32,006 bases of DNA from Halobacterium salinarum DSM 3754 (lineage in GTDB: Archaea; Halobacteriota; Halobacteria; Halobacteriales; Halobacteriaceae), in assembly GCF_008124605.1 (NCBI RefSeq), contig NZ_VRYN01000010.1, forward strand, positions 1-32,006, read 5' to 3'. This document shows, piece by piece, positions 5,730 through 17,739 of this stretch. The number at the start of each line of letters is the position of its first letter. Position 1 is the first letter of the stretch. Under the pieces are notes generated by a model. It was not told where the DNA came from, made no database searches, and saw only the letters and a program-made list of their open reading frames with translations. The position numbers were made by a program, and so were the translations under genes.

Positions 5730-6791
5730 ATGGTTGATCTAATCGACGTCGTCCTTGAGGGGTTCAAAGAGGCCGTCGATTGGATTGTCGGCCTCTTCAT
5801 GCACGGCCTGCGTTCCGGCTATGAGACCCTCACCGAGGAGATGTTTGGGACACCAACGCCGGAGACGGATGGTGCGTTCGTCTTCGGAGAGCCCAGTAAT
5901 GCCCCGTGGCCGTCAATTCAGGACGCGCTTGTCGGTGGTGAGATCATGTTGATCTCGCTGCTCCTCCTCGTGATGTGCGTTCAGGGGCGTCACACGATCC
6001 GTATATTCAATATTGGAAGTGCATACGAGGCCAGACGCACCAAGAAAACTGCTTGGGTCGGCGCGTTTCTGATTATCAGCTGGTACTGGGTCAGTATTCT
6101 TGGACTCTACATCGTGGATGGGTTCACAATTGCCCTGATGCCGAGTCTGGGTTCTTTAGCCGATGCAATGCTCAACTTGCTCGAAGTCTCAATCACAAAC
6201 CCTGGGCTTTCACTCGTATTCGCACTTATTGGAGGACTCTCGATGTGGGCTTTGGAGGCCCTCTACTACATTCGCGAAGTCCTGCTCTACGTCTACGTGT
6301 ATGGGATGCCGATTGCGTTCGCGCTGGCCTACGGAAACATCCCCGTGCTCTCGGATATCGCGATGGGCTTTAGCAAGAAATTCGTCCCGTTAGCGATCCT
6401 GCCTCTGCCTGCAGCAGTGGTGTTCAAAGGATACGACTTGCTGTACTCTCAGAACGCCATCGCTCCGAGTAGTCCGTTTTTGCGGTATCTAGTCGCGGCA
6501 TCACTCCCACTGATCGCACTTTACCTGACTTGGAAGACGTTCAAATACGCGACCCCACTCACGGCGAAGGTTCTCGGCGGTGCGACCAAGGGAGCGGCTC
6601 TCATCGGCGGTGTCGCCGCTGGGGCCTATATCGGTGGCGCCGGCGTCGCGACGACGGCGGCCCGATGGGGACCGAAGGCCGCAGCGGGCCACGCTGTGGC
6701 GCAGAAAGCTGCATCTCGGGGCTCGAATAGCGACGAAGACAGCGGGACGCCGTCCTACCGGCGGACCGAGAACGACCCTGGAAGCTACTAA
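5730..6791 (+). CDS. Polytopic membrane protein, VirB6/TrbL-like
   Basis: 353 residues with an amphipathic N-terminus, then about six to seven hydrophobic segments (for example IMLISLLLLVMCV, AFLIISWYWVSILGLYIV, LSLVFALIGGLSMWALEAL, VLLYVYVYGMPIAFALAY and LVAASLPLIALYLTW). A Gly/Ala-rich stretch follows (AALIGGVAAGAYIGGAGVATT), then a hydrophilic Ser/Asp/Arg tail. This organisation, a multi-span protein followed by a glycine-rich helix and polar tail, is that of VirB6/TrbL channel components of type IV secretion systems, and its place just before the VirB3/VirB4-like genes agrees. The identification is architectural only. Confidence 0.65.
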   Translation: MVDLIDVVLEGFKEAVDWIVGLFMHGLRSGYETLTEEMFGTPTPETDGAFVFGEPSNAPWPSIQDALVGGEIMLISLLLLVMCVQGRHTIRIFNIGSAYEARRTKKTAWVGAFLIISWYWVSILGLYIVDGFTIALMPSLGSLADAMLNLLEVSITNPGLSLVFALIGGLSMWALEALYYIREVLLYVYVYGMPIAFALAYGNIPVLSDIAMGFSKKFVPLAILPLPAAVVFKGYDLLYSQNAIAPSSPFLRYLVAASLPLIALYLTWKTFKYATPLTAKVLGGATKGAALIGGVAAGAYIGGAGVATTAARWGPKAAAGHAVAQKAASRGSNSDEDSGTPSYRRTENDPGSY

Positions 6792-6797
6792 CAATCC

Positions 6798-7919
6798 ATG
6801 TCCATCGACCAAGACGCAGCCGCACGGCGCATCATGGACCAGTTCGGTGAGGAGAGTCGCATCCCTTCCCTCAACATCGAGGAAGGCGACGTTGGCGTCC
6901 TCATCGCCTTCCCGATCGTCGGCCTGTTTGTCGCGGGCCTCACCGGCATCGAATCACTTGCTCTCCCGTTCGTCGCAGGGGGGTTCGGGTTCGGCGTTGC
7001 AATCGTCTACGTCTCGCCCGACCACCTCAACGCGTGGACGTGGACGAAAGACGTCTATCGCTACGTCAAGCGCCCCCAGATCACGTTCAGTTCCCCAGAG
7101 GAGGCCAACAGTAGTACCAACGAGACAGAGCGCAACGAGGGCGGGCTCGCGAACTACACGCCGTTCAAGCCCGACGAACGAACGCAGGACCTCACGAACA
7201 TCGAACGGGCGTGGCCGGGGGCTGGTGCGATCCAGCGCGCCGACGGCACGATGGAGGCGTTCATCGAGATCGACCCGGACAACATGGACTTCGCGATGTC
7301 CGACGACTGGGCCCAGCTCCAGGACGCCGGCGAGGAGTTCGCCAACAAGGAACTCGACTCCGAGCTCAAACTCCACGCGACAACCCGCTCATTTCCGGTG
7401 GAGCAGATCACCGAGACCATCGAGGAGCGCCTCACTGACGAAGACGTCACGGAGAACCCGATCTTCCGGGAACTCCTCGAGGAGTACCGGGAGACACGGC
7501 CGAAGGAGATGCGTGACCGGGGCATCCAGCAAGTCCGGTACTACATCGGCGTCCAAGTCAGCCCGATAGAGGTCTACGACCGCTTCCGCGACGAGGGCAC
7601 GCCGGCCGAGAAGCTGACCCAGTTCCCCGTCATCGGATTCCTCTTCAATCCGTTCGTGACCCGCCGAGAGGACCTTACCGACGTCGAGCGCCGTGCCCAG
7701 ATGTTCGAGAAGCTGGACAGCCGAGTCAACGACGTGCGGTCGGAGTTCATCCAGCAGGCCTCGGGGTGGTCCGCCCGCCGGCTCGGCACGGTCGAACTCT
7801 TCGTGTTGAATATGGACTTCTGGAACGGCCGCGAACACGACTACGACGAAGCCGAGCGCGTCGTTCGCGAACAACCGATCATCGGCCATTCACGCCGGGA
7901 GGATGCCCACGATGCGTAA
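6798..7919 (+). CDS. VirB3/PrgI-like membrane protein with a VirB4-N-like extension
   Basis: 373 residues. A short cytoplasmic N-terminus is followed by two adjacent membrane helices (about residues 31-68: VLIAFPIVGLFVAGLTG and ALPFVAGGFGFGVAIVYV). A W-T-W-T-K-D-V-Y motif then leads into a long acidic soluble domain. Two helices at the N-terminus directly upstream of the ATPase gene is the arrangement of VirB3 and PrgI family proteins. The soluble domain (about 130-370) looks like the mixed alpha/beta N-terminal domain of VirB4-type ATPases, so VirB4 may be split here. The stop codon lies inside the start of the next gene (8-base overlap), implying coupled translation. Confidence 0.7.
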   Translation: MSIDQDAAARRIMDQFGEESRIPSLNIEEGDVGVLIAFPIVGLFVAGLTGIESLALPFVAGGFGFGVAIVYVSPDHLNAWTWTKDVYRYVKRPQITFSSPEEANSSTNETERNEGGLANYTPFKPDERTQDLTNIERAWPGAGAIQRADGTMEAFIEIDPDNMDFAMSDDWAQLQDAGEEFANKELDSELKLHATTRSFPVEQITETIEERLTDEDVTENPIFRELLEEYRETRPKEMRDRGIQQVRYYIGVQVSPIEVYDRFRDEGTPAEKLTQFPVIGFLFNPFVTRREDLTDVERRAQMFEKLDSRVNDVRSEFIQQASGWSARRLGTVELFVLNMDFWNGREHDYDEAERVVREQPIIGHSRREDAHDA

Positions 7920-10137
7920 CCTCGTCCTCCAGACGGGCAGCGGAGCCGTCGCCCAGCTCACGGAGTGGCTCACGAATCCGACGTCAGTCGAGGGTACAGC
8001 CCTCTACATTCTGCTCGCGGTACTGGTCGGAACCGGAAGGAAATTCCTCTGGGACTGGTACAGCGAAGACGACGAGGAAGAGGTCGAGTTCTCGGACCTG
8101 CTCGACGAGGAGACCATCGAACAGGGCGCGGCCGAACGCCAGCTCCTCGACGACATCGCCGAGTCACACAAGACGGTGACCGCGTCGGCGGCGATCGAGT
8201 GGGAGACGCGTGCGGCACAGGTCGGCGAGCAGTGGACGACGACGCTGTACATCGCCAACTACCCGGACTACCCCAACGACGGCTATCTCTCCGAGCTCTT
8301 CGAGATGACCGACGTGCAGTTCGACCTGACGGCCCACATCACGCCGAAGAACCAGGAGCGGGCCCGGAACGAACTGCAGGATATCGCTGACGACCTCCAG
8401 GTCGACGCCGACCTCGAACAGAGCGTCCGGAGCGCCTACCTGCAGGAGCGCGCCAACGAGGCCGCAGCGACGTACAAGGCCGTCGAGAACGGCGCGAACG
8501 TCTTCGACCAGGGGATGTTCATCACGGTCAGGGCCGACGAGAAGGACGACCTCCAGGATGCTGTCCAGAAGGTCAAAAGCGCGCTCCGTGACGACCCCGC
8601 GAACCTCACGCCAAAGACGGCGATCTGTCGGCAGGACCTCGCCCTTCAGTCCGCCGCGCCCATCGGCGACAACGAGTTCGGACGGACGTCGATTGCGCTC
8701 GGCGGCGCCGTCGGCGCGTTGCTCTCCTCGCCGCACAACGCGACGATTCTCGAGGAGGGCGGCGTCGAGTTCGGGATTCACAAGGACAACCAGAGCCCGG
8801 TGGTCATCGACCCGTTCGCCCGGGACAACGGGTACGCGATGTTCACCGTCGGCGATACGGGCTCGGGGAAGTCGTTCAGTTCGAAGCAGAACTTCATCCG
8901 CTCTGTCGAGCAGAGCAAGGGCCGCATCGGCATCATCCTCGAACCGCTGAACAACTGGGCCGGCGTCGCCGAAGCGCTCGACGCCAAACGCATCACCGTC
9001 GGCGGAACCCTCGGCCTGAATCCCTTGGAGATCCGGGAGACGCCTGAGCACGTCCAACGGGCGATGGGGGAAGACGCCAGCCCGTTCAACGAGAAACTCG
9101 ACGACGCGATGAGCTTCCTCACGAACTTCTTCGCGCTTCGCGGCATCTCGTTGGGTGACCGCCGGACGACACTGGAACTCGGGCTCAAGCGGGCGTACAA
9201 GCGCAACGGGATCACCGACGACATCTCGACGCACGACAACCCGAGTCCGACGATTCGGGGCATGATGGACGTCTTCGAGGATATGGTCAACAACCCCGAG
9301 GAGTTCGTCGTCCGGTCCGATGAGGAGGCCGGGAAGATCAAGGAGGACGCGACGTGGCTGCTTGACCAACTCCGTCCTTTCGAGGCGGACGGCCGCCACG
9401 CCAACCTCGGCCAAGAATCGGACTTCGACATCCGAGACGAGAAAGTCATCTACCTCGATCTCGCCCAGCAGGAGGGTAGCGTCGACAGCAGCACGGCGTT
9501 GACGATGCAGTTGCTCATCTCGCTGGTGTACGAGCGGGCGAAGGTCTCGGAGAAGGAGGTCGTGTTCTACATCGACGAGGCCCGCTACATCATGCAGGAC
9601 GCCGCGAGCCTGGCGTTCCTCGAGACGGTGTTCCGCCACCACCGGCATCACGACCTCTCGATCCGGCTGGTCACGCAGACGGTTGACGAGTTCTTCGAGC
9701 ACGCCGAATCCGAGGCGATCCTTGACCAGTGTGCGGTCAAGCAGTTCCATCGCCTCGACGGGATGGACGAGGAGTGGGCCGACGAGTTCGGGCTGAACTA
9801 CGCGCAGATGCGATTCGTCCAGGACGCCGTCCCCGGCAACGAGGACGCCGGCTTCTCCGAGGCACTGGTGGGCGTCGACGGCGAGTGGCGCGGCATCCAG
9901 GTCAAAGCGATGCCCAAAGAGAAGCAGGTCATCGACTTCGACCCAACCTCCCAAGTTCGGTCCTCGCTGCCCGGTGCCGGAGATGAAGCCGTCGATACCG
10001 AGATGCAGGAGTTCCAAGAAAAGCTCGAACATCGAACAACGAACGGAACGGACGAAACGAGCGAACTGAACGAGGATTCAGACGCCGTCGAAGCTGAGCC
10101 AGACGGCGGATCTATGGAAGAGACTAACGATGGCTGA
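7912..10137 (+). CDS. VirB4/TraC-like conjugation ATPase
   Basis: 741 residues from the ATG at 7912, preferred over 7903 because GGGAGG ends just before 7903 and gives normal spacing to 7912. A membrane helix lies near the N-terminus (LYILLAVLVGTGRKF). The ATPase core has Walker A GDTGSGKS at residues 314-321, Walker B VVFYIDEA at about 550-557 and a downstream TQTVDEFFE segment typical of VirB4/TraC/HerA-type motors. Such ATPases energise assembly of the mating channel. The C-terminal 60 residues are acidic and probably disordered. It overlaps both neighbours by eight bases. All motor motifs are intact. Numbering counts from the 7912 start. Confidence 0.9.
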   Translation: MRNLVLQTGSGAVAQLTEWLTNPTSVEGTALYILLAVLVGTGRKFLWDWYSEDDEEEVEFSDLLDEETIEQGAAERQLLDDIAESHKTVTASAAIEWETRAAQVGEQWTTTLYIANYPDYPNDGYLSELFEMTDVQFDLTAHITPKNQERARNELQDIADDLQVDADLEQSVRSAYLQERANEAAATYKAVENGANVFDQGMFITVRADEKDDLQDAVQKVKSALRDDPANLTPKTAICRQDLALQSAAPIGDNEFGRTSIALGGAVGALLSSPHNATILEEGGVEFGIHKDNQSPVVIDPFARDNGYAMFTVGDTGSGKSFSSKQNFIRSVEQSKGRIGIILEPLNNWAGVAEALDAKRITVGGTLGLNPLEIRETPEHVQRAMGEDASPFNEKLDDAMSFLTNFFALRGISLGDRRTTLELGLKRAYKRNGITDDISTHDNPSPTIRGMMDVFEDMVNNPEEFVVRSDEEAGKIKEDATWLLDQLRPFEADGRHANLGQESDFDIRDEKVIYLDLAQQEGSVDSSTALTMQLLISLVYERAKVSEKEVVFYIDEARYIMQDAASLAFLETVFRHHRHHDLSIRLVTQTVDEFFEHAESEAILDQCAVKQFHRLDGMDEEWADEFGLNYAQMRFVQDAVPGNEDAGFSEALVGVDGEWRGIQVKAMPKEKQVIDFDPTSQVRSSLPGAGDEAVDTEMQEFQEKLEHRTTNGTDETSELNEDSDAVEAEPDGGSMEETNDG

Positions 10138-13100: not shown

Positions 13101-13948
13101 ACCCAGATGCAGACGAGTCAGAGATGAGCCCCCTGTTCGGGCAGGCTACCGAGACGGACGGGGAATCAGCTGGTGACCAAGCAGCGGAGCCGAAAAACAG
13201 GGCAACGCCCGTTCAGGAAAGCAGCGTGCCCGTTCCCGATGACGAGCTCCGACAACGCGGGCTCAGTCGAGACGACGTCCGGTTCCTGAATCGCGTCCTC
13301 GATGTGGTGAACAGAGAAGACGACGAGTACACGCTGCTGGACAGGATGAGCCAGCTTCGGGACGAATACGAGGATCTCCACATAGAGCGGCTCACGGAGC
13401 AGGACCTCGTTGAAGCGGACTCCGCAGCAGGTCGCAAGTACTATACTGTCCTCCCGGACGGCCGCGACCTCCTTGGGAGAGAATTGAAAGCGGGCCCAGG
13501 AGCGGGCGATCTCGGCGAGAAAACGCCACACAAAGTGGGTGTCCGCCTCCTCGAGCTGTGGCTCCAGCAGCGGGACGACGTCGTTCGCGTGGAACCGTAC
13601 TACGAAACCGACGACGACACGGTACTGGACGTGGCCGGCTTCGACGAGGACGGCGATCTCGTCTGGGCCGGCGAAGCAGAGCTCGCGAGTAATAACCGGC
13701 ACGCCCCGGTCGAGGATTACGACAAACTCAGCGCGGCGGACGCCAAGGCGATCTGGGCCTTCAACAATCGCGAAACGGCGCTCGACGTTCTGGATAGCCT
13801 TGCCGACGTGGATCGGATCGACGAGCGAGTCAGCGGGCGGGCGGCCCGGTCGTTTGCGACTATCAGAGACGCCGTTGGAGACTTCGATGCTGCGGGCCTG
13901 ACCACCGTTCGAGGCTTCAAAAATCTCGATCAAGACCTCAACCAATGA
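10130..13948 (+). CDS. VirD4/TraG-like coupling ATPase with C-terminal winged-helix and nuclease-like domains
   Basis: 1272 residues, unusually long for a coupling protein. Residues 1-500 form a large N-terminal region without clear membrane helices. The motor has Walker A STGGGKS at about 507-513, a VVLVDPKGDG strand after it, FDLGDL at 735-740 and a second acidic strand LIIEEA at 777-782, the likely Walker B. A disordered acidic linker runs from about 930 to 1040. The C-terminal 180 residues contain a winged-helix-like segment and then a restriction-nuclease-like pattern: VLDVAGF (D1167) followed by WAGEAE (E1182, E1184), i.e. D...ExE, a variant of PD-(D/E)XK. Coupling proteins bring the relaxosome to the channel; no separate relaxase is visible, so the tail could help process DNA (inference). 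It overlaps both neighbours (8 and 4 bases). Confidence 0.85.
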   Translation: MAEYLRVTPTSERLDPESIPRVLDSLHKLTTPGSLGLGAKLNPLHSETPPRFEFLAISDGPDDPVEFIYRADAHLDTLEKRLRSIYPATFDIERVDVDVAARLIQPVELTPQEFVDHYEAGRLQYEFGPAEQYDTIDEESVDAESAEADPVVDGGTASTRVPDHHVTIGDSALELAPPDALPDDNEERRAIEKPTMTPAGTILARPAQDAVSPLGVRWCGSTSRKQDWMTLLTPFTAEETNGDHSSVDEPGAALASLIDHLMEAIAPTAFQVVFQRRASWQSDAEVRKEGLVDGRDTFFEEVVGSLFEVEEQRSDQDDRQLSEAVEKRIEYIDAKNAKRSFTVNIRAVGVPIDDTRDDLDGRMDSLLPVFDPLDGPFYEVEGQRLRDSGFREKTKEKKARAALQRLLNRELTTGRGKTRPELVLCGTELANFVLVPSSEQLTVEGTRGTRAEQQSRNPLPWPNPDLIQQFQEGMEIGYALDENGEPRPDPIQIPPDLLPTHYGRFASTGGGKSKAIINDALSLRESTGGPVVLVDPKGDGMCENYLRCHYERFEGLDDVYHFRVPETIPAFSFFDIRPALEAGRNREDAIQDKVDHFHDILRMIMGREQYGQAFVANEILSYLIKALFDEEYGSDVFGLDDLFAAALRMQREQTIPLVSADNQNIEESLTRHFAKDNHQFQVSMDAVGNRLDKLKEDAHLRRIFSHVPKQNDAGEYVDNRFDFREFLDEDATIIFDLGDLRPEAQRAITLLLLSNLWDAVQVRRRDGQTDYEKLTNLIIEEAAPVASTKLVSEQLLPQGRSFGLSMGLVMQFPEQVRNRNERAYDEVLNNIKTKLIGNISIERDLAESLAHEDLSPTDLRNRINTLPSGEWIAQLPSPSFGETGPPPFSLQPLPIAPGHPESDQPLTEPQKDHFKSVSRPRMVKRTQAQYGLAEATESNTASEETGWGSTGADTAGSAADGDAATDPTQSAFISESTTKDASTTQPEADSNPDADESEMSPLFGQATETDGESAGDQAAEPKNRATPVQESSVPVPDDELRQRGLSRDDVRFLNRVLDVVNREDDEYTLLDRMSQLRDEYEDLHIERLTEQDLVEADSAAGRKYYTVLPDGRDLLGRELKAGPGAGDLGEKTPHKVGVRLLELWLQQRDDVVRVEPYYETDDDTVLDVAGFDEDGDLVWAGEAELASNNRHAPVEDYDKLSAADAKAIWAFNNRETALDVLDSLADVDRIDERVSGRAARSFATIRDAVGDFDAAGLTTVRGFKNLDQDLNQ

Positions 13949-14829
13949 CCTGGCGACAGGCGACCCGCAAGGAGATTCACGCCTACTACGCCGAGGAGTT
14001 CCCCCGCTACCTGGATGATCTGCCGGAATTCATCACGGCGACCGGCCCGAAACAGTACGCCGTCGCCTTCCGGGATTCCTACCCAGTTCGCAAAGACGAG
14101 GTGCCGGACAAGGGCTTCATCCGGCGGGATACGTGGCAGACAGATGCGTCAGAGGATCGAACGACGCCCGAGTTCGAGGACTTCGAGGACGTCGTTGAGT
14201 TCATTCGGCATCCAGCTCGCAACGACCCGCTGGGGCGGAGTGAATTCGCGCTTGCTGATCCGGAGGTACTGGAGCAGCCGGACCCACGGCCCGACGCCGT
14301 TTACTACGCGCTGGATCACTGGGAGCGACCGTGGGTCCTCCTCGTCGATATCGACGCCAAGGAGATCGCCCGAGAACGAGCTGCGGATGCCGTCTCGGAC
14401 GACGTCGACGATCGAGATGATGAGGCGCTTCTTGACGCCGCCGGCATTCTCGACGCCGAGCCAACCGGGTATCCGTACGCCTTCGAAGACGTCAACCGTG
14501 CCATCGAGTACGGGTTCGAAGTGCGCGATATCTTCGAAGACGATTTCGATGCCGAGGAGACGATGGTCGTGTACAGCGGGCAGGGTGTCCACGTCTACCT
14601 CCTTGATACGGACCCGGCGCACCGGTACGATGAGCAGAGTCACGAAGTGTTGAACGACCTCCTCCTCGAGACGTACGACATCCCGATCGACCCCGTCGTG
14701 ACGGCCGATCGCCGGCGGGTCGCCCGACTGCCCTACTCGCTGCACGCCGACGTCTGTAGCATCGTTCAACCCATCGAGAGCCCGGCGTTCGACGTTCGCT
14801 CGGCGACACCCGAAGTGATCGACGAGTAA
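13945..14829 (+). CDS. PriS-like archaeo-eukaryotic primase
   Basis: 294 residues. Motifs of the archaeo-eukaryotic primase fold are visible: LLVDIDAKE with the D-x-D pair at 135/137, VVYSGQGVHVYLLD with the sxH-type His at about 216, and PIDPVVTADRRRVARLPYSLH with a third Asp at about 249 and basic residues for nucleotide binding. These proteins make RNA or DNA primers. The gene overlaps the VirD4-like gene by four bases (ATGA), so primase and transfer motor are made together, which suits priming of the incoming or outgoing single strand. It is shorter than chromosomal PriS (about 350-390 residues) and lacks its usual zinc-binding knob, so it is a plasmid-type relative. A TnpB element begins 12 bases after its stop. 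Confidence 0.8.
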   Translation: MTWRQATRKEIHAYYAEEFPRYLDDLPEFITATGPKQYAVAFRDSYPVRKDEVPDKGFIRRDTWQTDASEDRTTPEFEDFEDVVEFIRHPARNDPLGRSEFALADPEVLEQPDPRPDAVYYALDHWERPWVLLVDIDAKEIARERAADAVSDDVDDRDDEALLDAAGILDAEPTGYPYAFEDVNRAIEYGFEVRDIFEDDFDAEETMVVYSGQGVHVYLLDTDPAHRYDEQSHEVLNDLLLETYDIPIDPVVTADRRRVARLPYSLHADVCSIVQPIESPAFDVRSATPEVIDE

Positions 14830-14839
14830 GTTAGCTCAC

Positions 14840-16110
14840 TATTAGGACTGTGAACTTTCAGCATGGACTCCCGCTCTAACCGAATCCGGTACGGGTTTTA
14901 CACCGTTCGCGTTCAGCATCCCGCTGTTCAAGCGCACACCTACGGGTGCGCCTCCTTCGTCCCCGGTTTGGTTGCGAAGGAGTCTGTATCCGATATTCTT
15001 CGCTGCGTTGTAGTCCGCGTGGTTCTCGTACCCACAGGACTGGCAGCAGAACGTGTCCTGGGACGGGCGGTTTTCCGCATGGGTGAAACCACACGACGAG
15101 CACCGCTTCGACGTGTTCTTTGGGTTCACTTGTTCGACGCGGATTCCGCATTCCTCGGCCTTGTACGAGACGTATTCGTACAGGCGGCGGAATGCCCACT
15201 GGTGGAACATACGGGCGTCGGGCATCCGATCACGGATATCCGTCAGGTCCTCAAAGGCAATAACCGTGCAACCGCTCTCGGTGGCTTCAGCGACGAGATC
15301 GTTCGCGATACGGTGAAGATACTGCTCGAATCGTCCCGTCTCCTTGCGCCCGACCACTTGGACGTTCTCGTGGGCCCACCGCGACCCACACTCTTGAAGC
15401 GATGTCCGGCGCTCGACGTACTCCGTTCGCCAGTGGTTGAGTTCGCCAGCAGACCAGAACGCGCCGGTCGAGGTGACGGCGATGTTCTTGATCCCGAGGT
15501 CCACACCGAGAACCGTTCCGTTCTCGGCCGGTTTGGGATCGTCCACATCCGCCTTTATTCGGACGTGGAGGTAGAAGTCGCCACGACGGTAGTGGAGTGT
15601 CGCGCCTGTCGTCTCCCACCCATCAGACCGCAGATACTCCGAGTGGGGCGTGTCACGGGTTTCGTCGGGCAAGACGTACTCGACAGTGACGCGTCCATCG
15701 ACGGTAGACAACGCTGCGTGGTCGTCGTGGAACGAGGCGTTGCGCTGGTTATAATCGCAGAACGGCGAGGAGAACGTCGGGAGCGAGGCATACTCGCCCT
15801 TCTTCTACTTTGCGATGATGCTCTTGAGCCCATCAACAGCACGGTTGCGAGCCGATTGAACGTGGTTACTGTGGAGTCGCGTCTCCTGACGAACCTCGTC
15901 GTAGGTCATCTCATGCAGGACGGACGAACGGGTTTCAGCTCATTCGCCGTCCCATGCAGCGTCCACGACGTAGTTGGCCGCCCACAGAAACTCGTCAATC
16001 GTTTCGTGAAGCAGGTCCGCCTGTTCGTCAGTCACGTCGAGTTTGACTGGGACGGTCCGACGGACCTCCATATGACTCACAATACAAGCCATGCTTAAAT
16101 TGGTTAATAT
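14840..16110 (-). mobile_element. IS1341-type insertion (approximate ends) splitting the primase genes
   Basis: The element lies between the PriS-like stop (14829) and the PriL-like start (16216). The right end must be very close to the tnpB stop, since only 12 bases separate it from the primase stop. The omega-RNA of such elements overlaps the 3' part of tnpB, with the guide read from flanking DNA just below 14842. On the minus strand, upstream of tnpB, a TTTAAG box lies about 25 bases before the ATG and an ATATTAACCAATT stretch before that may belong to the left end. Exact ends are not defined by visible repeats. Confidence 0.6.
14842..16071 (-). pseudogene. tnpB: TnpB gene of an IS200/IS605 (IS1341-type) element with two in-frame stops
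   Basis: One frame of 409 codons runs from ATG 16071 (MEVRRTVPVKLDV) to TAA at 14842-14844, interrupted by TGA at codon 44 (15940-15942) and TAG at codon 89 (15805-15807). Both lie where homologues most likely have Trp (DGE-W-AET and IAK-W-KKGE). The catalytic part is intact: RuvC-type Asp in LGVDLGIKN (codon 191), Glu in [12 protein letters not shown] (codon 274), Asp in [11 protein letters not shown] (codon 353), and a zinc ribbon CSSC...CQSC. TnpB is an RNA-guided nuclease that helps the element persist. No tnpA is present. A downstream start could still yield a 289-residue C-terminal product from 15711, lacking the N-terminal domain. It is encoded against the surrounding + strand operon. 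Confidence 0.9.
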
Positions 16111-16215
16111 GATCCGGCGGGGGAACCAGTCCGCTACCGGCAACGAGAGTAGTATAGCCAAACGAATGCACTCCAGATCACGTTTGAACAGGTGGTTTTT
16201 CGCCTAATCGTAACT

Positions 16216-17739
16216 ATGAGTCCGAGTACCCCCACCGACGACGAGGACATGGCGTATCGAGTTGCGGCACTCCCGCTGGAGTACGGTGAGACTCGCGTCA
16301 ACCAGCTGTTTACGAGTGGTTACAATCGATACGTCGTCGACGGTGAAGACCAGCCTGAGGACCTCGTGAACGATATCGAGCGGTTCGGGACGGCGGCATT
16401 CAAAGAGCAGGTTCGTGCCGACGCCGCCGAGGAGCCGTTCGTCGACGAACCGGGCACGCTCGCCGTGCTCGCGACGCTGAGTGCGATCTGTGTGAAAGAG
16501 CACCCGAAGTTCGAGCACGCGTCGCCCCGGAACATCCAGGTCCTCTACGACATCCGGGAGCTGTACATCAACAATCTCGCCTCACTCATCCGCGCCCACG
16601 GTGATGGCTCGCTCCAGCAGGACATCGCCGACGTGCTGTACAGCAAGGAGCCCGGCGAGGATGGCCCACACCCTGGTCGGGTCTGTACGGGCATCACAGA
16701 GATGCCGGAGCTCGGAGATGGTCTCTCTCTCGAAATCCCGATGGCGGCGGCGTCACGGAAATGTCTCGTTCGGGAGGACGAGGCGTCGGCGGGGAGTAAC
16801 GATGGCGAGGAGATACTGACGCGAGTGAAAGACAACAAGCTGTACGTTCCGGTCGGTGATTTCGACAGCAAGTATCGGGACTACGCTGAGCGGGCGTTCA
16901 AGAAGCTCCTCCGGGTGCAAGAAGACGGGCTCTCCGACGATCAGCTGACGTGGCTAACTACGAACGAGTCGGCGATTACAGAGCGGATTGAGCGCTTCCT
17001 CGAGACCGGCCATCACGAGCGGATCTGGCGGAACTGGGACCGTGGCGAACGGACGATCCGCGTCCTCCGGCAGGCGCTAGGTGACGCCCCGGACGACGTG
17101 GCGCAAAAGGGTGAGTTCCACACGGCGAAAGAACTCTATCGAGCGGTTGCGGCGTACGACGCTGAAGATGACTGGGAATCCTCTGTAACGGACTGGATCT
17201 CGAGTCCGAGCAGTCTCGCGAAGACGCTAGCCGACCACGAGTCCCACTCGGCCGTTACGATCGATCGCGACGGGCGCGTCAATACGTACCGAATCGGGCG
17301 AGCCGGGACCGGCGCCGAACAGATCGAAGTCCGAGAGATCAAGGACCTCTTCGAACTCCCCTGTATGGCGAATATGGAAAAACGGCTGCACGAGAAGAAG
17401 CCGGTTCGAAAGGATCTCTACAACTTCGCGCGGATGGTAATGTGGCTCCCCCAGTATCAGGACAGCAGCCTCGACGAGATCGTCACAGATCTCAAGGACG
17501 TCTTCTCTCGGTGGCCGTGGTACGACGAGCAGGAAACTGAGTACCAAGTCCGCTACGAGTTCTCGAACACCATCGACGGGGACACCCCGTTGCCGATGAA
17601 CTGCGATAACGACGATCTGCAACGCTACTGCATCGGCCAAGACCAGTGTCCCTACTCGATCTGGGGTAGTCTCCCGTTTCCCGACGAGATGTACGAGCAG
17701 GTTGAGGAGGGATCAGCTGGTCCCACTGAGCAATTCTGA
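16216..17739 (+). CDS. PriL-like primase partner with probable 4Fe-4S C-terminus
   Basis: 507 residues from the ATG at 16216 (MSPSTPTDDEDMAYRVA); a GTG eight codons earlier adds residues that look non-coding. The N-terminal 330 residues are helical. The C-terminal third has four well placed cysteines: LPC at about 383, MNC at 463, RYC at 472 and DQC at 478, with a basic helical segment after the first. A gap of about 80 residues between the first two cysteines and a compact cluster after them is the pattern of the PriL iron-sulphur domain, which binds the template/primer end. With the PriS-like gene upstream it would form a two-subunit primase, separated now by the TnpB insertion. Overall identity to chromosomal PriL appears low. 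It lacks an obvious TATA box of its own after the insertion. Confidence 0.7.
   Translation: MSPSTPTDDEDMAYRVAALPLEYGETRVNQLFTSGYNRYVVDGEDQPEDLVNDIERFGTAAFKEQVRADAAEEPFVDEPGTLAVLATLSAICVKEHPKFEHASPRNIQVLYDIRELYINNLASLIRAHGDGSLQQDIADVLYSKEPGEDGPHPGRVCTGITEMPELGDGLSLEIPMAAASRKCLVREDEASAGSNDGEEILTRVKDNKLYVPVGDFDSKYRDYAERAFKKLLRVQEDGLSDDQLTWLTTNESAITERIERFLETGHHERIWRNWDRGERTIRVLRQALGDAPDDVAQKGEFHTAKELYRAVAAYDAEDDWESSVTDWISSPSSLAKTLADHESHSAVTIDRDGRVNTYRIGRAGTGAEQIEVREIKDLFELPCMANMEKRLHEKKPVRKDLYNFARMVMWLPQYQDSSLDEIVTDLKDVFSRWPWYDEQETEYQVRYEFSNTIDGDTPLPMNCDNDDLQRYCIGQDQCPYSIWGSLPFPDEMYEQVEEGSAGPTEQF

Follow-up and report, generated by a model that had tools for sequence, protein, structure and literature searches.

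What is a primase-like gene pair doing at the end of a DNA transfer operon in a haloarchaeon? This question is raised by a 32,006-nt stretch of Halobacterium salinarum DSM 3754 (contig NZ_VRYN01000010.1, positions 1 to 32,006; hereafter the window). In this window, two genes resembling the archaeal primase subunits PriS and PriL form the 3' end of a plus-strand operon, following genes for a TrbL/VirB6-type channel protein, a VirB4-like ATPase and a coupling ATPase (Table 1), which together make up a predicted type IV conjugative transfer operon. Most probably the window belongs to an H. salinarum plasmid, since its PriS-like protein shares 100% amino acid identity with those encoded on plasmids such as pNRC200. 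An earlier note, made from the sequence alone, had proposed that the operon encodes a two-subunit archaeal-type primase. This proposal is well supported by the VirB4, TrbL and ATPase genes that precede the pair, by the regular pairing of the two genes and by the PriL homology of the second protein. The reading that we favor, with somewhat better than even confidence, is that a plasmid-specific PriS-like/PriL-like primase works as one unit with the type IV coupling ATPase and serves strand synthesis during or just after transfer.

The putative catalytic subunit

The PriS-like gene overlaps the end of the coupling-ATPase gene by 4 nt, as originally described. Its product shows correctly placed matches to TIGR00335 (E = 3.7e-8, 33.1 bits) and PF01896 (E = 1.5e-5, 25.9 bits), with scores under the curated cut-offs of 143.5 and 26.8 bits, respectively. 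A profile built from 18 relatives retrieves the primase small subunits 1g71 (E = 2e-8), which we take to be Pyrococcus PriS, and 1v33 (E = 4.9e-8) from the PDB. These matches bear out the PriS-like assignment of the earlier note. In profile-profile comparison, the same profile matches haloarchaeal chromosomal PriS with 93.7% probability. An Asp-x-Asp motif, an S-G-x-G-x-H motif and a third Asp, which we take to be the catalytic motifs of PriS, are all present, and these residues are aligned with those of chromosomal PriS. The AlphaFold2 model of the protein is poor (mean pLDDT 35.8) and too weak to judge the fold.

A phylogenetic comparison with chromosomal PriS, which the earlier note had called for, was made with 66 sequences, comprising 18 plasmid PriS-like proteins, 19 haloarchaeal chromosomal PriS and 29 further PriS of the phylum. 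One branch (support 100/100) splits off the plasmid proteins as a clade of their own, on a stem 3.3 changes per site long. Judged from this tree, the PriS-like proteins form a plasmid family that is old and separate and did not arise by recent copying from the host. Recent capture of the host chromosomal primase genes was also considered and is rejected on the same ground. We named the protein PriS-like and did not file it as PriS because the curated cut-offs are not reached and because it belongs to its own clade. Outside the order, five genomes from a single family carry short second PriS-like genes in frames of 288 to 340 aa (G392:C7:64156-64587, G401:C26, G410:C34, G419:C30 and G439:C1).

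The partner protein and its likeness to PriL

The protein encoded downstream belongs to NF038197, the primase-associated protein family, scoring 847.4 bits (cut-off 100 bits), and its residues 14-508 of 515 align with model positions 1-493 of 495. No function is stated for this family, and its link to a primase is already familiar to NCBI curators. A PriL-type pattern of four cysteines with an 80-residue first gap had been noticed in the protein, and the residues are indeed found at Cys383, Cys463, Cys472 and Cys478 (steps of 80, 9 and 6). The four cysteines are invariant in all 78 family members and aligned with those in all 57 PriL compared. Steps of 80, 9 and 6 occur in 69/78 members, and the 57 archaeal PriL, including that of the same genome, have 68-73 (71-73 in the majority), then 9, then mostly 6-7. 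The earlier claim that the last gaps are tighter than in chromosomal PriL is thus wrong for archaea, as archaeal PriL shows the same last two gaps and only the first gap is longer in the partner.

Profile searches connect the partner to PriL directly. A profile of 16 partner-family members was run against 176 whole genomes of the phylum. Outside the order it matched 18 genomes (E = 2e-5 to 9e-4), in each case within a chromosomal PriL open reading frame (PriL profile E ≤ 1e-46). Comparison of 78 partners with 57 PriL using hhalign gave 90-92% probability and E values of 5e-7 to 1.5e-6, each of the four cysteines being matched to its PriL counterpart. The divergent partner L166 matches the PriL model PF04104 over residues 375-473 (E = 3.5e-4, 20.4 bits), just short of the cut-off of 22.4. 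The C-terminus of the partner is shown by these alignments to be homologous to the Fe-S domain of PriL, and its four cysteines are predicted to hold a 4Fe-4S cluster. The protein is named PriL-like and not filed as PriL because the PF04104 cut-off is not reached.

The partner might instead be an unrelated Fe-S or zinc protein that shares the four-cysteine pattern only. Just the ~100 C-terminal residues align, the partner is ~150 residues longer than PriL, and an initial profile comparison with shallow alignments gave 11.6% probability, which rose to the above values with deeper alignments. The AlphaFold2 model is also poor (mean pLDDT 40.5, with block means of 60-82 only at residues 371-450), and a Foldseek search of this weak model against the PDB found nothing at E ≤ 0.001. 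A second structural look with VIA returned the human primosome chains 5exr_B (Z 3.9) and 8d0k_E (Z 3.5) alongside unrelated entries that scored just as high, with partner residue 380 falling on 5exr_B residue 284, and is given little weight. Against this explanation stand the selection of chromosomal PriL in all 18 matched genomes outside the order, the register of the cysteines in the deeper profiles, the PF04104 match of the divergent member and, weakly, the 5exr_B match. We therefore regard an unrelated protein as very improbable.

Other features of the partner family were also noted. Cysteines 92, 157 and 183 are kept in 74/77, 74/77 and 75/78 members, respectively, and are absent from some divergent ones; they possibly form a second metal site. 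Elsewhere in the same genome, a different contig carries a ~40-residue piece of NF038197 inside a 294-aa open frame (G000:C8:38447-38563; loci L004 and L261), and the same piece is found in other H. salinarum plasmids (rows H118-H120). In a genome outside the order, a second match to the PriL-type Fe-S domain lies in an 879-aa frame (L256; G399:C1:944959-945255), which recalls fused plasmid primases. A relationship between the middle region of the partner and the Pox_D5-like end of the long coupling ATPase described below is unsupported (0.1% probability).

Pairing of the two genes and linkage to the coupling ATPase

NF038197, the PriS-like protein, VirB4 and PrimPol were surveyed in the same 392 genomes, drawn from the larger order. 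NF038197 was found in 94 of them and the PriS-like protein in 81. The place of the Haloferax volcanii copy that served as a control in the NF038197 genome search was not found. For the pairing count, 89 of 94 PriS-like rows were used (five short pieces were left out), together with 105 partner rows (the 16 shortest partner fragments were left out). The partner lies within 3 kb downstream in 88 of the 89 PriS-like places. The gap between the matched parts is 14-256 nt in 86 places and 1404 nt in two, namely the window and genome G183. The earlier note would have given up the pair if the genes failed to co-occur where no insertion separates them, a condition that allows for the element inserted in the window. 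Conversely, 17 of the 105 partner places had no PriS-like match in the count, and most of these are fragments. One of them, G212:C34, was scored as lacking PriS because two of the left-out short PriS-like pieces lie just upstream, so that a remnant is present.

The two wide gaps have a simple cause. An IS200/IS605-type element with a broken tnpB gene, carrying two in-frame stops, lies between the two genes of the window, and the same element (92.5% identical) occupies the same site in G183 (locus L018). The element boundaries were set by comparison with uninterrupted relatives and with this locus. The stop codon of the PriS-like gene lies at the left end of the element and its 294 codons are intact, and the partner gene keeps its ATG at the homologous place. 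In uninterrupted relatives on annotated plasmids, such as Halorubrum trapanicum pCBA1232-01, the partner start lies inside the PriS-like stop, with 4-nt overlaps.

The coupling ATPase adjoins the PriS-like gene in all 40 fetched PriS loci. VirB4, whose co-occurrence in other haloarchaea the earlier note proposed to look for, is encoded upstream in 36 of these. Among the four loci without VirB4, L052 and L174 stop at contig ends, and L170 and L183 look degraded. Two quite different VirB4 types accompany the pair. In Haloarcula sinaiiensis, a divergent ATPase-PriS-partner triad has the same order, with a partner of 34% identity, and no VirB4 is annotated within the 4 kb fetched upstream. Over 32 loci, distances among the PriS-like proteins, taken pair by pair, follow those among the partners (r = 0.966) and among the ATPases (0.939) more tightly than those among the VirB4 proteins (0.788). 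Together with the neighborhood counts, these correlations indicate that the unit is ATPase-PriS-partner. Chance neighborhood of the genes is rejected in view of the pairing and of the ATPase adjacency in all 40 loci.

A different arrangement was observed on a Halovenus salina plasmid (L292:2743-10554). What precedes the partner there is a 171-aa C-terminal half of a PriS-like protein, the half with Asp-x-Asp being absent. Upstream lies a gene for a UvrD-type helicase, a different motor beside the pair.

Exchange with an NrS-1-type PrimPol

VirB4 relatives were found in 237 of the 392 genomes. The 150 VirB4 places considered here are those listed at 806 bits or more, with two first-look candidates scored per genome, and thus do not represent all VirB4 genes. 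The PrimPol list goes down to 406 bits, and weaker PrimPols count as neither unless the locus was fetched. On this basis, the pair lies downstream of VirB4 in 54 places, a PrimPol in 57, both in one and neither in 38.

The operons without the pair are otherwise close sisters of that in the window, with VirB4 proteins 88-93% identical to the one in the window and the same upstream genes. Their coupling ATPase is longer, 1433-1505 aa in seven annotated loci compared with the 1272 aa of the window form, and shows a C-terminal Pox_D5-type match in the two proteins scanned (E = 3.6e-6 in L164 and 0.0055 in L152). The long ATPase is followed by a ~420-aa protein with an NrS-1 polymerase HBD domain (PF22763, E = 1e-32), which matches NrS-1-type primase structures (6k9a, E = 2.1e-38). 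In 50 of the 57 places, VirB4 and the PrimPol are 4.5-5.2 kb apart, which leaves room for the ATPase; in the other seven the PrimPol comes directly after VirB4. The PrimPol and the C-terminal domain of the long ATPase match opposite ends of one phage primase family, phrog_1829.

Two subfamilies of archaeo-eukaryotic primases thus share one operon slot and are almost never found together. This exchange is the strongest argument for a role in transfer and suggests that primer synthesis belongs to transfer. It makes a conjugative role comparable to that of bacterial plasmid primases more likely. It also bears on a rival idea, in which the pair acts as a primase-polymerase that repairs incoming or damaged plasmid DNA or fills gaps in it, instead of priming the transferred strand itself. 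The accessible text of PMC7776575 links archaeal PriS/L to strand displacement and gap filling apart from replication, and some divergent partners are encoded near other genes, such as the Halovenus helicase. The close coupling to the transfer ATPase, seen in both adjacency and distance correlation, and the PrimPol swap in the same slot speak against a repair function, which we consider improbable.

Distribution on plasmids

The PriS-like protein was found in 78 plasmid records and the partner in 90, and the organisms named are haloarchaea. No relative of the pair was found in phage records or IMG/VR contigs, and neither protein has a match in PHROG, so that a viral origin of the pair was rejected. 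All 78 and 90 plasmid records are typed as non-mobilizable, though several of those opened are typed MPF_T (mating-pair formation). Plasmid typing does not recognize these transfer systems as mobile.

H. salinarum NRC-1 carries the catalytic gene on pNRC200 and the partner on pNRC100 (L086 and L293), and insertion sequence elements cut its upstream transfer genes. The persistence of these plasmids without an intact module speaks against an essential role in replication. The pair could still be a replication primase for the vegetative copying of these ~70-700 kb plasmids, with its place in the operon only a regulatory convenience. An Orc1/Cdc6 initiator of the plasmid's own is encoded ~15 kb from the pair in this group, and other archaeal plasmid primases, those of pTN2 and pRN1, are replication proteins according to the accessible text of PMC5862659 and PMC4158269. 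Besides the split NRC-1 module, the position next to the coupling ATPase in all 40 fetched loci argues against this explanation, as does the finding that the replacing PrimPol likewise tracks the transfer operon. A replication primase is in our judgment unlikely, less so than a repair enzyme.

Proposed role in transfer

Under the favored reading of a primase coupled to transfer, the coupling ATPase would drive single-stranded plasmid DNA through the VirB4/TrbL channel. Within a predicted complex, the Fe-S subunit would hold and support the PriS-like subunit, which may prime the strand that stays behind in the donor, the one that enters the recipient, or both. Synthesis of the complementary strand could then begin before the host primase becomes available. 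A bolder proposal, which we put forward tentatively, is that of a dedicated, exchangeable priming module in haloarchaeal transfer systems, in which the ATPase is combined with either the PriS/PriL-like heterodimer or the NrS-1-type PrimPol, whose missing C-terminal domain would be carried by the ATPase. A single machine would then lay primers on the strand while pumping it. Conjugation in archaea would accordingly move single-stranded DNA and obtain the complement through a self-encoded primase, not that of the host.

Several observations weigh against a transfer primase. The PriS scores of the first protein stay below the curated cut-offs. The window partner has no Pfam match, PF04104 included, and its N-terminal ~370 residues show no PriL alignment in the profile comparison, the PriS-binding domain of PriL being N-terminal. 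Within the stretches fetched, no PriS-like gene adjoins the divergent partners L054, L166 and L167, of which L167 starts at the edge of a contig. A relaxase was not recognized, PF03432 giving one borderline match in 15 genomes, and archaeal relaxases may escape recognition. Because of this, single-stranded transfer stays an unproven prediction.

The VirB4 places with neither primase in the lists are a further point of this kind. For these, 24 loci covering 25 of the 38 places were fetched. A weaker PrimPol was found in four (L190, L191, L203 and L206), a remote PrimPol in L200 (38 bits) and a trace in L199 (27 bits). In L192 the contig stops inside the ATPase, and L196 and L197 show an ATPase match only at the far edge. 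L198 encodes a long ATPase and L165 a 116-bit ATPase relative, each with no primase. Thirteen VirB4/TrbL loci have a match to neither this ATPase type nor a primase (L162, L168, L169, L193-L195, L201, L202, L204, L205 and L207-L209); these may serve protein transport, use another ATPase or be remnants. The make-up of the fetched loci indicates that VirB4 alone needs no primase and that the primase follows the coupling ATPase.

The system bears on how archaeal plasmids move, and whether as single or double strands. The tie of the primase to the coupling ATPase, and its exchange for a primase of another kind in operons that are otherwise nearly identical, point to a step with single-stranded DNA. 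They also offer a direct genetic test in culturable haloarchaea and lead us to propose a function for NF038197.

Features of the window

The first long gene of the operon encodes a predicted exported protein without a matching Pfam or NCBIfam family, and the 373-aa protein likewise gave no match in scans of these two databases. TraD/TrwB/TraG coupling-protein models match relatives of the coupling ATPase.

Table 1. Predicted features of the transfer operon and the primase pair in the window.
Feature	Position	Strand	Basis
Predicted exported protein, 577 aa	3140..4873	+	First long gene of transfer operon; kept 5' of VirB4 in relatives
Transfer-operon protein, 285 aa	4870..5727	+	4-nt overlap with preceding gene
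TrbL/VirB6-type membrane channel protein	5730..6791	+	PF19590 TrbL_3, E = 1.4e-140
Transfer-operon protein, 373 aa	6798..7919	+	Kept in relatives
VirB4-like ATPase	7903..10137	+	NF045975, E = 3.6e-36; TIGR02746, E = 5.8e-18
HerA/FtsK-superfamily coupling ATPase (VirD4/TraD-like), short form, 1272 aa	10130..13948	+	PF01935, E = 0.0029; NF040819 HerA, E = 2.3e-5
Putative PriS-like catalytic primase subunit (archaeo-eukaryotic primase), 294 aa	13945..14829	+	Family models, motifs, profile searches
Putative catalytic D-I-D motif (Asp135, Asp137)	14347..14355	+	Invariant in 18/18
S-G-Q-G-V-H motif	14575..14592	+	Gly212, Gln213, Gly214 and His216 invariant in 18/18; Ser211 in at least 90%
Putative third catalytic Asp249, in I-D-P-V-V-T	14689..14691	+	Invariant in 18/18; aligned with chromosomal I-D-E-P-V-T
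IS200/IS605-type TnpB element, broken tnpB, 1390 bp	14826..16215	-	NF040570, E = 6.5e-48
NF038197 primase-associated protein, putative PriL-like large subunit, 507 aa	16216..17739	+	NF038197; PriL homology of C-terminus
Predicted 4Fe-4S domain	17362..17649	+	Cys383 (17362-17364), Cys463 (17602-17604), Cys472 (17629-17631), Cys478 (17647-17649)

Comparison with known systems

A literature search found no paper joining "primase-associated protein" with "haloarchaea", and, judged by titles and abstract openings, none describes this arrangement of primase and transfer genes. The VirB4/D4 region of H. volcanii is presented as a possible DNA secretion system in the accessible text of PMC2841640. Fusexin-bearing elements carry VirB4, HerA and VirD4-type genes, and the word primase is absent from the accessible text of that report (PMC9259645).

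Bacterial conjugation primases are also encoded with transfer genes, as in RP4 TraC and ColIb Sog, which we take to be such enzymes, and RSF1010 RepB'/MobA. They differ in enzyme architecture and include no heterodimer of the archaeal replicative type, and the haloarchaeal system differs in turn by having no recognized relaxase. The NrS-1 phage PrimPol, after which PF22763 is named, is represented by the protein that replaces the pair in sister operons and matches its structures. Unlike the phage enzyme, this protein stands alone beside a coupling ATPase bearing the Pox_D5-like end. The window partner is a full-length member of NF038197, a family named after the neighboring primase, whereas PriL homology, the coupling-ATPase link and the PrimPol exchange are absent from the family name.

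Like cellular PriS/PriL of archaea and eukaryotes, the plasmid pair consists of two separate subunits, with the PriS catalytic motifs and a four-cysteine C-terminal domain with spacings of 9 and 6. It differs from the cellular enzyme by its own deep clade, its scores under the curated cut-offs, and the longer partner with an unmatched N-terminus. The PolpTN2/PrimPol-PV1 supergroup likewise combines PriS-type and PriL-type Fe-S domains on mobile elements, according to the accessible text of PMC5862659. PolpTN2 is a single fused chain, whereas two genes are present in the window and in the fetched relatives. The same source, in whose main text neither "halo" nor "VirB4" occurs, describes PriL as nearly exclusive to chromosomal primases and PriCT domains as exclusive to mobile elements. 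The plasmid pair departs from this view and is an exception to the near restriction of PriL to chromosomes, as worded in the accessible part of that work.

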